Origin: Chryseobacterium sp. Leaf404
Lineage (GTDB): Bacteria; Bacteroidota; Bacteroidia; Flavobacteriales; Weeksellaceae
Assembly: GCF_001424145.1 (NCBI RefSeq)
Contig: NZ_LMQM01000013.1
Location: forward strand, 186,001-250,000
DNA: 64,000 nucleotides
Direction: 5' to 3'
Shown: piece by piece, positions 12,616-63,986 of the stretch
How the letters are laid out: each line of letters starts with the position of its first letter
Position numbering within the stretch: position 1 is the stretch's first letter
Translations under genes and position numbers: made by a program
The notes under the pieces: model-generated
The model's database searches: none
What the model saw: the letters and a program-made list of their open reading frames with translations, nothing else
Told to the model about the DNA's origin: nothing

Positions 12616-13542
12616 TTATTTACCCGAAAGCACCTCATCACTAATATCTGCTACCTGAACGCTTTTAAGAGCTGATTTGGTTGAAGATGCTGTACTTCCA
12701 CCCATAATGTAGAGTTTATTATTATATATTTCTGCAGCGGCATGTCGTCTGGGAATCATGTTGGATGATAACTTATGCAGCTTATTGGTTTCTGTATCAA
12801 AATAGGCCAGAAAATTTTGATTATTATAACCGCCTGCAATAAAAATCTTAGTACCGGATACCGCTAATGAATGACCGGATATCGCAGCAGACATCGTGTA
12901 TTGCTCAGTCCATTCATTTTTGTTGAGATCAAACACATTCACCAGACGGGATGACGTACCGTTAAAACCACCGATTACATAGAGCTTATCATTCACAATT
13001 TTGCCCCTTGCTTCTCTGGCTGTTGGCATATCGGGTAAAGTATGCCATGTGTCTGAAGCAATGTCGTAATATTGAAACCTGTCAGAAAATACTGTGGTGG
13101 CGGCATTGTTTAGCCCACTGCCGCCGAACGTATATATTTTTCCATTATGAATGGCAGAGCCTGCATTTCCTGTGTAGGCACGATTAACAGCTCCCTTCGT
13201 TTTTTGATGAGTTTCAAGGTCTATAATTTCAAGATGGCTGTTTCCCCATCCGTTAAAAATATAAACTTTATTACCGTAAGTCTCCGAATTGGCGAATCTT
13301 TTAGGAACCAGACTGGAGTTGATGAGACTCCAGCGGTTATCTTTAGTACTGTATTTCTCAATAAAATTTGCATAACCATCCGTGTCTTTATATCCATTGC
13401 TCACATAGATATTGTCACCTGCAATAGCACTGCTTATCGCTCCTCTGCGAACAGACATATCCGAAAGGTGTTTAAATTTTAATGTTTGTGCAATGGCTAA
13501 ACATAAACCGAAAAGTGAAAGTAGGAATGATTTTGTTTTCAA
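12616..13542 (-). CDS. Secreted kelch-repeat beta-propeller protein
   Basis: 308 aa. A signal peptide (MKTKSFLLSLFGLCLA) is followed by about six kelch repeats, seen as recurring 'IYVSNGY', 'VYIFNGW', 'IYTFGGSG', 'LYVIGGFN', 'IFIAGGYN' and 'LYIMGGS' with downstream Trp/Tyr. Kelch propellers bind proteins or sugars; no enzyme site is visible. The start is a TTG at 13542. A near copy of its leader and TTG start region occurs at 14265-14350, upstream of the next gene. Confidence 0.82.
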   Translation of the reverse strand: MKTKSFLLSLFGLCLAIAQTLKFKHLSDMSVRRGAISSAIAGDNIYVSNGYKDTDGYANFIEKYSTKDNRWSLINSSLVPKRFANSETYGNKVYIFNGWGNSHLEIIDLETHQKTKGAVNRAYTGNAGSAIHNGKIYTFGGSGLNNAATTVFSDRFQYYDIASDTWHTLPDMPTAREARGKIVNDKLYVIGGFNGTSSRLVNVFDLNKNEWTEQYTMSAAISGHSLAVSGTKIFIAGGYNNQNFLAYFDTETNKLHKLSSNMIPRRHAAAEIYNNKLYIMGGSTASSTKSALKSVQVADISDEVLSGK

Positions 13543-13619
13543 TGGCGTTGAGGTTTGGTTTAATTGATTTTCTGTGTTGAAAAATATGTTTTTAAATATA
13601 GGGAAAAGTCACGGATTGG
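13533..13619. repeat. Duplicated leader sequence, copy 1
   Basis: About 87 nt covering the kelch start codon and its upstream region. They match 14265-14350 with about ten differences and one 1-nt gap by eye. Confidence 0.8.
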
Positions 13620-13639
13620 GAATATAGCACATCAAGCTC

Positions 13640-14179
13640 TCAATACCCATTAATTGTATTAAAGTTCACATAATATTTTTTGAATTTGAATGTATCTTGA
13701 TCTATTATTATGGTTTTGGAATCAACTATTTGACATTCTCTTGTATATTGATATATTTTTCTATTATAAAAAGATGTTAATTTAAAAGTATTGCCATTAA
13801 GTATATAAGAGTCAGCATTTTTGTATTCTTTAATTAAATCTGATTTTTTCCAACCCAAGCGACCAAATAATACGTCAAAAACCCAACTGTCCTCATTGCT
13901 TGAGCCAGGTATTTGCCACATTTCCGCCCCAATTACCCTATTTATAGCTTTACCCTCACTGCTAAACATATAAATTGATAATCTAGCTGGGTATAATTCA
14001 GGAATGTCTACTTTTCGAGGATTTAAAGAATCTATTTCTGATATTCTTTTGTAAGAATAATAATATCCATCAAATCTTAGGAGTGACTGAGATATTCCGT
14101 CCCGTGATAAAGGTTTGTATGACATTGCAGAACAACTGATGATAAGTATTAAAAAAGAAATGTAAACTAAAAATTTCAT
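13640..14179 (-). CDS. Small lipoprotein, unknown function
   Basis: 179 aa. MKFLVYISFLILIISCSAMS has a lipobox-like 'LIISC' with the modified cysteine at about residue 16. The rest has no motif I know and is rich in Tyr, Ile and Ser. The frame is open to 14275, but that extension (MKAKLLLLLISVIL...) lies in the duplicated leader and ends in a REP-like palindrome. I therefore start at the ATG at 14179. AT content is higher than in neighbouring housekeeping genes. Confidence 0.65.
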   Translation of the reverse strand: MKFLVYISFLILIISCSAMSYKPLSRDGISQSLLRFDGYYYSYKRISEIDSLNPRKVDIPELYPARLSIYMFSSEGKAINRVIGAEMWQIPGSSNEDSWVFDVLFGRLGWKKSDLIKEYKNADSYILNGNTFKLTSFYNRKIYQYTRECQIVDSKTIIIDQDTFKFKKYYVNFNTINGY

Positions 14180-14212
14180 ATAATAAACTTTAAATAATGT
14201 GAAATCAGATAG

Positions 14213-14230
14213 CGCGGATTTATAATCCGT
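14213..14230. repeat. REP-like palindrome
   Basis: CGGATT and AATCCG arms (14215-14220 and 14224-14229) around TAT, within GCGCGGATTTATAATCCGT. Palindromes of this kind (gcggatt-n-aatccgc) are common between genes in Bacteroidota and are linked to RAYT enzymes. Confidence 0.5.
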
Positions 14231-14264
14231 ACATAAAATCACGGAAATTAAAAGGAGTAATAAC

Positions 14265-14350
14265 TTTGCTTTCAATAGTGTTGAGGTTCGGGTTAATCGA
14301 TTTTCTGGGTTGAAAAATATGTTTTAAATATAGGGAAAAGTGATGGATTG
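14265..14350. repeat. Duplicated leader sequence, copy 2
   Basis: A near copy of 13533-13619 (about 88% identical by eye), including a TTG start context followed by a hydrophobic reading frame. That frame soon runs into other sequence, which suggests the remains of a duplicated gene start. Confidence 0.8.
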
Positions 14351-14371
14351 GAAATCTGCGACATAATAATG

Positions 14372-14394
14372 GGTACGAGCGAGACGCTCGCACC
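14372..14394. repeat. REP-like palindrome
   Basis: GGT-A-CGAGCG, loop AGA, CGCTCG-C-ACC: a 9-bp stem with one mismatch, GC-rich in an AT-rich region. It lies just past the stop of the gene ending at 14406 and may serve as its terminator. Confidence 0.5.
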
Positions 14395-14405
14395 AGAGGG
14401 GAATT

Positions 14406-14738
14406 CTAAAACGGCATAAAGCCTAAGTGTATTTTTTCATTATCGTATTTATAGAAAATTGAAAACCTTGGATTTTTATGAAACCCATCATAAATATTCA
14501 ATTGCAAATAGTCATCGTAGAATCCATTAAATTCTTTTTCGACTTTTATCTCTTTTATCTTCCCGCGGACTTTTGAGTGTAAAATTTTGTTCCTAAATAA
14601 TTTGTAGAAATCTAATTTACTTTCCCTATCTACAATTACAATTTCAGACTTCAGAAAAGAAATGAAATATTTCGGATCTTTTTTAACAAACGCTACCACC
14701 AATGCATTTCTGATATGTTTATTTGTTAAATCATTCAT
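14406..14738 (-). CDS. Hypothetical protein, AT-rich
   Basis: 110 aa, basic and aromatic, no signal peptide, predicted cytoplasmic. I recognise no family. It begins 6 nt after the stop of the longer gene upstream, so the two are probably co-transcribed. Lys, Phe, Ile and Asn are frequent, and the codons are more AT-rich than those of nearby groEL. This suggests a horizontally acquired pair. Confidence 0.55.
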   Translation of the reverse strand: MNDLTNKHIRNALVVAFVKKDPKYFISFLKSEIVIVDRESKLDFYKLFRNKILHSKVRGKIKEIKVEKEFNGFYDDYLQLNIYDGFHKNPRFSIFYKYDNEKIHLGFMPF

Positions 14739-14744
14739 TTCAAA

Positions 14745-15626
14745 TTAATCTAGATTTCCATATACAGTATCAATATCATCTTCATAAAAGTTATTTCTAA
14801 CCCAATCATCAAATGTTTCAAAGTCATTAGAAACTACATCTGTTTCATTCTCATATCCTATCCTTATCTTTTGAAAATACTCAATATGGTAATTAACATA
14901 CTGAAAGGGATCTAAAGTTTTGTTCACACCTAATAAAACTTCTTCATTTTCTTCGAGTTCAAATTCTAGAAATTCTTTCAAATCACAAATATTAACACTT
15001 ACAAAGTGATTATCATTATGATTATAGAATCGTAGAGAGTCATCATTTCTATACTCCCAAGAGTTATATTTAAAGTCTGGATCCTGACATACGTGAAAAT
15101 AGTAATCCGTACCTAGTTTGTACAAATCAAATTCAAACTGCTTTTCGAATTCGTCTAAAGTTATCCCAAATGTATCTTCTGAGGGAGAACTGGGTAATTC
15201 TTTTTTATGTGCATTACGAAAAAACAATTCATCATCTTCTTCGTCAATTATTTTTGGACTTATATTGCAATAACTATCCATATCTTCATTATAATCAATT
15301 TTATTTTTTATCTTGCTTAGCAATATTTTTCTATTTTCCGAGCCAGTCCATAAATCACTAGCTTTCGTTATTGCTTCTGTTGTAGAACTCAAAAGGAGTT
15401 TTAAATCTGCATTCATATTAAAAAGGCCTTGAATATAATTGTAATTTTCAAATAGTTTTTTCACAATAAATTCCACCTGATTTAATGTCAATGAAGTTTT
15501 TGAAATTAGATACTCTGTACTACCGATTCTGTTTGGCTCTAAATCATTGAAATAAAAGTTTAATAGATGGTTAATATTTTTTTTAGTTTTAGGATAAACA
15601 TTATCATTTTTGAGAGGTAATGCCAT
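14745..15626 (-). CDS. Hypothetical acidic protein, AT-rich
   Basis: 293 aa, rich in Asp, Glu, Asn and Tyr, no signal peptide or membrane segment after the chosen start. The frame is open to 15701, but the extension is a hydrophobic, poorly coding stretch; MALPLKNDN at 15626 is the more natural start. The first 80 residues are helical and the C-terminal half has many acidic and aromatic residues ('FDDWVRNNFYEDDID'). No family recognised. It pairs with the small gene 6 nt downstream. Confidence 0.6.
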   Translation of the reverse strand: MALPLKNDNVYPKTKKNINHLLNFYFNDLEPNRIGSTEYLISKTSLTLNQVEFIVKKLFENYNYIQGLFNMNADLKLLLSSTTEAITKASDLWTGSENRKILLSKIKNKIDYNEDMDSYCNISPKIIDEEDDELFFRNAHKKELPSSPSEDTFGITLDEFEKQFEFDLYKLGTDYYFHVCQDPDFKYNSWEYRNDDSLRFYNHNDNHFVSVNICDLKEFLEFELEENEEVLLGVNKTLDPFQYVNYHIEYFQKIRIGYENETDVVSNDFETFDDWVRNNFYEDDIDTVYGNLD

Positions 15627-15704
15627 TACAATAAATTTAGAATGAGTTAGTTTAGCTACAAATTTAATAATTATGTGGATATTTGATTTGATTAAAAACA
15701 AAAA

Positions 15705-15733
15705 AAACCGCCCAGAAAAAATCTGAACGGTTT
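15705..15733 (-). terminator. groEL terminator
   Basis: AAACCG (15705-15710) pairs with CGGTTT (15728-15733), and inner CAGA/TCTG extends the stem across a 2-nt bulge. It lies 24 nt past the groEL stop, with T-rich sequence following on the minus strand. Confidence 0.65.
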
Positions 15734-15757
15734 AAATATTTATAGCATCGATGATGA

Positions 15758-17416
<1,659 letters not shown>

Positions 17417-63427: not shown

Positions 63428-63458
63428 CAAAACTACAATTTTATTTTGTATTACACAA
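63428..63458 (-). promoter_or_regulatory. Promoter of rpoBC
   Basis: On the minus strand TTG (63458-63456), 20 nt, then TAGTTTTG (63435-63428), a full match to TTG-N20-TAnnTTTG. The transcript would begin near 63422, giving a leader of about 315 nt. Confidence 0.7.
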
Positions 63459-63675
63459 AGAAACATTAAAAATCAGTGAGTTAAATATCTTCAATCCTAT
63501 TAAACAATTTAGCACAATACAATCTGGCTGTAGCGAATGTGAAAATGCGCTGTGGTACTTGTTAGTTAAATTATTACATCATTTGAAAAGATTCAATACA
63601 TAATATAAATCATAGAAATATTTTTTTTAAAAGTAAATTAACAAATATTAATAAATAAATGAATATTATTTAGTT

Positions 63676-63702
63676 TTGTATTATATAAAGTATTTATATT
63701 TG
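63676..63702 (+). promoter_or_regulatory. Promoter of the small peptide gene
   Basis: TTG (63676-63678) and TATATTTG (63695-63702) with a 16-nt spacer, slightly shorter than usual. The predicted leader is about 50 nt. Confidence 0.55.
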
Positions 63703-63757
63703 CAGCAAGTTAAAAAAATACACCAATTGTATTTTAAAACTTAAAAACATCATACCA

Positions 63758-63937
63758 ATGAAAAATTTAAAAGAAAAATTAGCTGATCTTAAAATTGAGC
63801 AGCTAGAGGAAAGAAAGGAGTTTACTTTCTACACAGTTAAGAATTGCAACCCTCAACCACCATGTGGACCAACTCCTCCTACTACCCCTCCTGCAAACCC
63901 AGGAAACGGTGGCGGAAATACTGGAGGTGGCTGGTAA
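63758..63937 (+). CDS. Small Pro/Gly-rich peptide, possible RiPP precursor
   Basis: 59 aa. A charged N-terminal leader ('MKNLKEKLADLKIEQLEERK', about residues 1-21) is followed by 'EFTFYTVKNC'. Residues 31-49 are Pro/Thr-rich with a second Cys at 36, and the tail is 'GNGGGNTGGGW'. There is no hydrophobic signal peptide. The Leu/Lys/Glu-rich leader and small-residue core resemble ribosomal peptide natural-product precursors of Bacteroidota, but the modifying enzymes lie outside the window, so the class is unassigned. It has its own promoter and a terminator with a UUCG loop. Confidence 0.7.
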   Translation: MKNLKEKLADLKIEQLEERKEFTFYTVKNCNPQPPCGPTPPTTPPANPGNGGGNTGGGW

Positions 63938-63954
63938 AAAACTTTCATAAGCTA

Positions 63955-63986
63955 AGAAAAAGCGGACTTTCGGGCCCGTTTTTTCT
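63955..63986 (+). terminator. Terminator of the small peptide gene
   Basis: CGG-A-CT with UUCG tetraloop (63969-63972) and GG-C-CCG, extended by AGAAAAA/TTTTTTCT flanks, 18 nt past the stop. Confidence 0.7.

Follow-up and report, generated by a model that had tools for sequence, protein, structure and literature searches.

Peptide prenylation by enzymes of the isoprenoid-synthase fold is known from few systems. PalQ of Paenibacillus alvei, with active-site residues D89/D93 and Q197/D200/D204, strictly needs a C-terminal Trp in its substrate and leaves other electron-rich residues unmodified (PMC10853753); a Gly before that Trp is helpful (PMC13290415). All characterised trans-IDS-like peptide prenyltransferases target Trp, and they have in common a Gln upstream of the second Asp-rich motif (2026 review, PMC13290415). 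The same review describes ChrPC as a prenyltransferase-cyclase fusion (Hubrich et al. 2024). Among maturation proteases, EpeP is thought to remove the leader of epipeptides and possibly to export them (PMC10885120).

Here we describe a locus of Chryseobacterium sp. Leaf404 that begins at the end of the window, the whole stretch of 64,000 nucleotides analysed (contig NZ_LMQM01000013.1, G000:C13:186001-250000), and runs into its continuation, L002. A precursor gene and the genes of a predicted prenyltransferase and an M50 protease probably constitute an operon of three genes whose product would be a prenylated RiPP, a reading drawn from sequence comparison. The kind of enzyme, a trans-IDS-like peptide prenyltransferase, is already known.

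The precursor gene and its operon

The features of the locus are as follows.

63695-63702, + strand: -7 promoter element TATATTTG (TAnnTTTG), Bacteroidota type, conserved in G119 and G169 and present as TATCTTTG in G111
63758-63937, + strand: precursor peptide gene, 59 residues and stop, conserved, most codon changes synonymous, its leader family present in 13 genomes
63758-63823, + strand: residues 1-22, the leader, with the conserved motif IEQLEERKEF at its end, kept across 19 precursors and in genus g36
63830-63832, + strand: Tyr25 codon, candidate acceptor at +3 from the leader motif, a Tyr in all 24 precursors of stand-alone enzymes
63932-63934, + strand: C-terminal Trp59 codon (GGGW), favoured candidate acceptor in its own clade, kept in four orthologues
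63955-63986, + strand: UUCG-loop hairpin followed by T-rich sequence, from folding, recurring in orthologues
L002:1012-1827, same strand as the precursor: P0001, prenyltransferase-type enzyme, 271 residues, isoprenoid-synthase profile match
L002:1858-3012, same strand as the precursor: P0002, M50 membrane protease, 384 residues, HEFGH, NCBIfam matches

The product of ORF 63758-63937 (+) is the 59-residue peptide MKNLKEKLADLKIEQLEERKEFTFYTVKNCNPQPPCGPTPPTTPPANPGNGGGNTGGGW. Orthologues 83-93% identical to it occur in three other Chryseobacterium genomes, G119, G111 and G169 (L016, L017 and L031). Over codons 1-39 there are eight synonymous changes and one nonsynonymous change with respect to G111, and 12 and two with respect to G169. 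The presence of orthologues in three relatives, with mostly synonymous codon changes, indicates that the ORF is a genuine gene and no chance ORF. The four orthologues, that of Leaf404 included, show purifying selection on the peptide, the changes in these codons being mostly at third positions. We infer that the leader/core boundary lies after IEQLEERKEF. The core holds the two Cys, the PPTTPP segment and the Gly-rich C-terminal end reported in the preliminary description, and terminates in GGGW. An NHLP-type leader was matched neither in this precursor nor in its relatives.

The gene had been credited with its own promoter and a UUCG-loop terminator. The -7 element is conserved in relatives; it is accompanied by a weak -33 element, and the strict pattern TTTG-N17-23-TAnnTTTG has no match upstream of the gene. 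The hairpin and its loop are present (-13.6 kcal/mol, z -2.2), but the unit continues into the enzyme gene, which an attenuator fits better than a terminator. Orthologues keep the hairpin, with paired changes in the stem. Precursor-to-enzyme spacers measure 65-78 nt and, since a hairpin sits in every one that was folded (nine of nine systems), that at 63955-63986 is probably an attenuator inside the operon rather than the end of the transcription unit. Such an attenuator would let the precursor be made in excess.

The window stops 11 nt short of the next gene of the operon, the start of which would be window position 64011. The preliminary description had pointed beyond this edge for modification genes, and the two genes directly downstream encode an enzyme of prenyltransferase type and an M50 protease of the maturation type. 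Neither of the two belongs to the families it had guessed (ATP-grasp, radical SAM, LanM, peptidase-ABC), nor, on Pfam and NCBIfam searches, is either a class-defining enzyme of lanthipeptides, graspetides, radical-SAM RiPPs or lasso peptides. A non-exhaustive reading of ORFs in the 19 kb downstream recognised no dedicated transporter. Two inverted, paralogous sets of three secreted or surface-type genes each follow the operon (L002:3195-8326 and 12834-16695). The peptide operon is part of a stretch of about 14 kb that lies between rpoB and rplL.

P0002 matches the NCBIfam models daptide_HExxH over residues 15-314 (E 2.5e-25, 89 bits against a cut-off of 300) and YydH/LiaK (E 3.5e-14, 53 bits against a cut-off of 225). 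Both scores are below the curated cut-offs, and the daptide and epipeptide maturation proteases are its nearest kin. It is 30% identical to the M50 protease of a system in G117 in which the prenyltransferase is fused to a cyclase-like domain.

We envisage that the leader, ending in IEQLEERKEF, would guide the 271-residue enzyme, which would move an isoprenyl group from its diphosphate onto one core residue. The M50 membrane protease would then cut off the leader and help to release, and possibly export, a Pro/Gly-rich lipopeptide. Roles as a signal or as an antagonist are both possible.

The prenyltransferase-type enzyme and its relatives

P0001 searched alone has no credible match in Pfam, NCBIfam or the PDB. 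Its family as a whole gives scattered chance-level matches in Pfam, and a single sequence or narrow profile retrieved nothing useful from the PDB. The profile of an alignment of 25 sequences (A6) does find solved polyprenyl synthetases there, the best being 4lob (E 3.8e-5), the others weaker. In this alignment D49, D53, D172, D173, D176 and D180 are invariant and Q169 nearly so. P0001 thus carries a FARM DxxxD and a QxxDDxxD, the signature of the trans-IDS-like peptide prenyltransferases PalQ, ChrPC and ComQ. Q169 followed by D172/D176 has the spacing of PalQ Q197/D200/D204, and D49/D53 likewise that of D89/D93. The P0001 profile also matches a PalQ-like protein of Paenibacillus, at L032, with E 1.1e-6 and a probability of 91% at about 22% identity. 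That protein adjoins a histidine-kinase-like gene and an NHLP precursor (leader match 1.6e-19) ending in STW, the arrangement of the PalQ-PalX-PalP gene set of P. alvei (PMC10853753). P0001 ends at 271 residues and comprises the P domain only, without a C-terminal class II cyclase domain. The signature, the profile matches and the gene context make it very probable that P0001 is an enzyme that prenylates peptides. Its low pairwise similarity to characterised enzymes speaks against the prenylated-RiPP reading.

Support from structure prediction was dropped: an AlphaFold model from three sequences had a mean pLDDT of 54, and Foldseek with this poor model returned no match below E 0.001. The VIA list, headed by ABC transporters and with geranylgeranyl diphosphate synthases further down (Z at most 5.7), was left unused.

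A search with P0001 of 173 genomes of the genus gave 13 strong matches, P0001 itself included, in addition to weak matches to proteins of 660-680 residues. The precursor profile finds 22 precursors in exactly the same 13 genomes and nowhere else; these are the further copies of the leader for which the preliminary description had proposed a search. In all 13 the precursor is directly upstream of the enzyme gene and an M50-type gene is next, with an interrupted reading frame in G177. Tandem precursors occur, six in G003 and three in G195. Five of the six in G003 (L014:6615-7872) end in GGGIPF; the first has a TTG start, a GGSIPF end and has lost the core Cys. Genus g36 of the same family has the same gene set, with the leader VEKLE[DN]RKEFIFYC. 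In g36 (L066:2397-5507, L068:1442-5359) the precursor gene is separated from that of the prenyltransferase by genes for three secreted-looking proteins, and in G243 a frameshift divides the prenyltransferase gene.

In longer relatives the enzyme is fused to a domain resembling squalene-hopene cyclases, as matches to squalene-hopene cyclase models reveal. The precursors near them have a leader of the type VEELExRxE[ML], and several of these fused enzymes adjoin an M50 protease. One locus, in G211 (L069:4853-10178), combines a prenyltransferase-cyclase fusion and an M50 protease with a radical SAM/SPASM maturase and three precursors rich in Gly (leader ELEERLELGSW), which suggests a RiPP modified in two different ways. 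A class-wide search with the A6 profile added few further members. In G579, from another family of the phylum, a stand-alone prenyltransferase is paired with a precursor rich in Cys and free of Trp, ELSCYCAINLC... (L072:627-6439); the M50 protease of this locus has a weak PqqD match. Weak matches within the Leaf404 genome (L004-L006, E 0.1-0.2) were not counted as relatives, nor was L008.

A tree places its 14 Weeksellaceae-type stand-alone enzymes in one clade (99/99), inside which the Leaf404 clade forms a long branch; the distant stand-alone enzyme L060, itself a long branch, falls outside. Just upstream of the precursor in eight of nine sister loci is a gene for a secreted-looking protein of about 264 residues, 43-65% identical between species (L019, L020, L024 and L027, +; L021, L022, L023 and L025, reverse). 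In G187 this protein family is confined to the precursor locus, in three tandem copies; it is absent from the Leaf404 genome. The protein may belong to the peptide system.

Might P0001 instead produce a small molecule, as a terpene or prenyl-diphosphate synthase, with the peptide modified by the protease alone or secreted unmodified? It does fall in the isoprenoid-synthase superfamily, and no annotation marks it as a peptide enzyme. We consider this quite unlikely: the genes of enzyme and precursor occur strictly one to one and side by side, the Gln/SARM spacing is of the PalQ type, and homologous fused enzymes likewise adjoin leader-bearing precursors. Less probable still is that the peptide serves as a small structural or spacer protein, its Pro/Gly tail of low complexity having no link to natural products. 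The low-complexity core would suit such a protein, as would the lack of a curated family match for the precursor in NCBIfam and Pfam, but the leader is conserved while the core varies, copies occur in tandem and linkage to enzyme and protease is strict. The preliminary description had preferred a RiPP precursor to a structural protein, and the adjacent enzyme and protease, with a leader family in 13 of 173 genomes, support this.

Candidate acceptor residues

Which residue of the prenylated peptide would carry the isoprenyl group? The GGGW end is present in all four orthologues despite indels and differing spacers before it, and it comes near to the motif preferred by PalQ. C-terminal Trp59 is the most likely acceptor in the Leaf404 clade, at about even chances. 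Tyr25 comes second, as a possible but less likely candidate, and a Cys third, which seems rather improbable.

Since most sister precursors have no Trp (it is absent from 18 of 24 precursors of stand-alone enzymes), this residue cannot be the general acceptor, and the idea of a C-terminal Trp serving the whole family was dropped. In most precursors of stand-alone enzymes a Cys comes directly after the Tyr at +3 from the leader motif. With Trp mostly absent, Tyr invariant and the Leaf404 clade nested on a long branch, either that clade switched to its C-terminal Trp or the acceptor of the family is Tyr or Cys. Tentatively, the stand-alone Bacteroidota clade might comprise the first trans-IDS-like peptide prenyltransferases acting on Tyr or Cys at the leader/core junction; the Leaf404 clade would then have gone over to a C-terminal Trp or acquired one in addition.

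Alternatively the prenyl group might be placed on Tyr25, or on Cys in sister systems, across the whole stand-alone clade, the C-terminal Trp of the Leaf404 clade being incidental; a prenyl group at the leader/core junction would then anchor the peptide for intramembrane cleavage by the protease. The Tyr at +3 in every stand-alone precursor, most of them Trp-free, agrees with this, as does the single clade formed by the stand-alone enzymes of Weeksellaceae. So do the precursors of fused enzymes: all 16 contain Trp, located at +2/+3, about the same place, in 10 or 11 of them depending on how the motif is read. On the other hand, the characterised enzymes of this type use Trp without exception (PMC13290415), PalQ ignored other electron-rich residues (PMC10853753), and the Gln tied to Trp recognition is retained in Trp-free systems. 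The invariant Tyr could also be merely part of a recognition or cleavage site. We regard modification of Tyr25 across the clade as possible, though doubtful on balance.

Comparison with known systems

We found no description of stand-alone enzymes forming a Bacteroidota clade, accompanied by an M50 protease and by precursors that mostly lack Trp, in the searchable literature, a scope that did not extend to Hubrich et al. 2024. The scarcity of Trp in sister precursors hints at new chemistry. Natural substrates with a terminal Trp and others free of Trp, paired with homologous enzymes, make the determinants of acceptor choice directly testable. The combination of precursor, prenyltransferase and M50 protease, which Pfam and NCBIfam leave unnamed, offers a handle in searches for lipidated ribosomal peptides in Bacteroidota.

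Like the daptide and epipeptide systems (YydH/LiaK, EpeP), the locus has an HExxH membrane metalloprotease adjoining a RiPP precursor; it differs in that no daptide or epipeptide modification enzymes are among the adjacent genes. ComX/ComQ of Bacillus also relies on an enzyme of the isoprenoid-synthase fold for peptide prenylation. However, ComQ is without the second Asp-rich motif (PMC10853753) that P0001 possesses, the Trp of ComX is internal and no M50 protease gene has been described with this pair. The P domain is homologous to that of ChrPC, as judged from the fused relatives and from the description of ChrPC in the review, and those relatives have the LExRxE leader type and M50 protease in common with our system. 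P0001 differs in having no cyclase domain and, as far as that description goes, its precursor in having Tyr in place of Trp near the leader. In PalX/PalQ (PMC10853753) the leader is of the NHLP type and the prenyltransferase is adjoined by a histidine kinase, whereas P0001 is adjoined by an M50 protease and most sister precursors of its system contain no Trp. The resemblance nevertheless extends to a stand-alone peptide prenyltransferase of the isoprenoid-synthase fold beside a small precursor, the same FARM and Gln-SARM spacing and, in Leaf404 itself, a precursor that also ends in Trp (GGGW).
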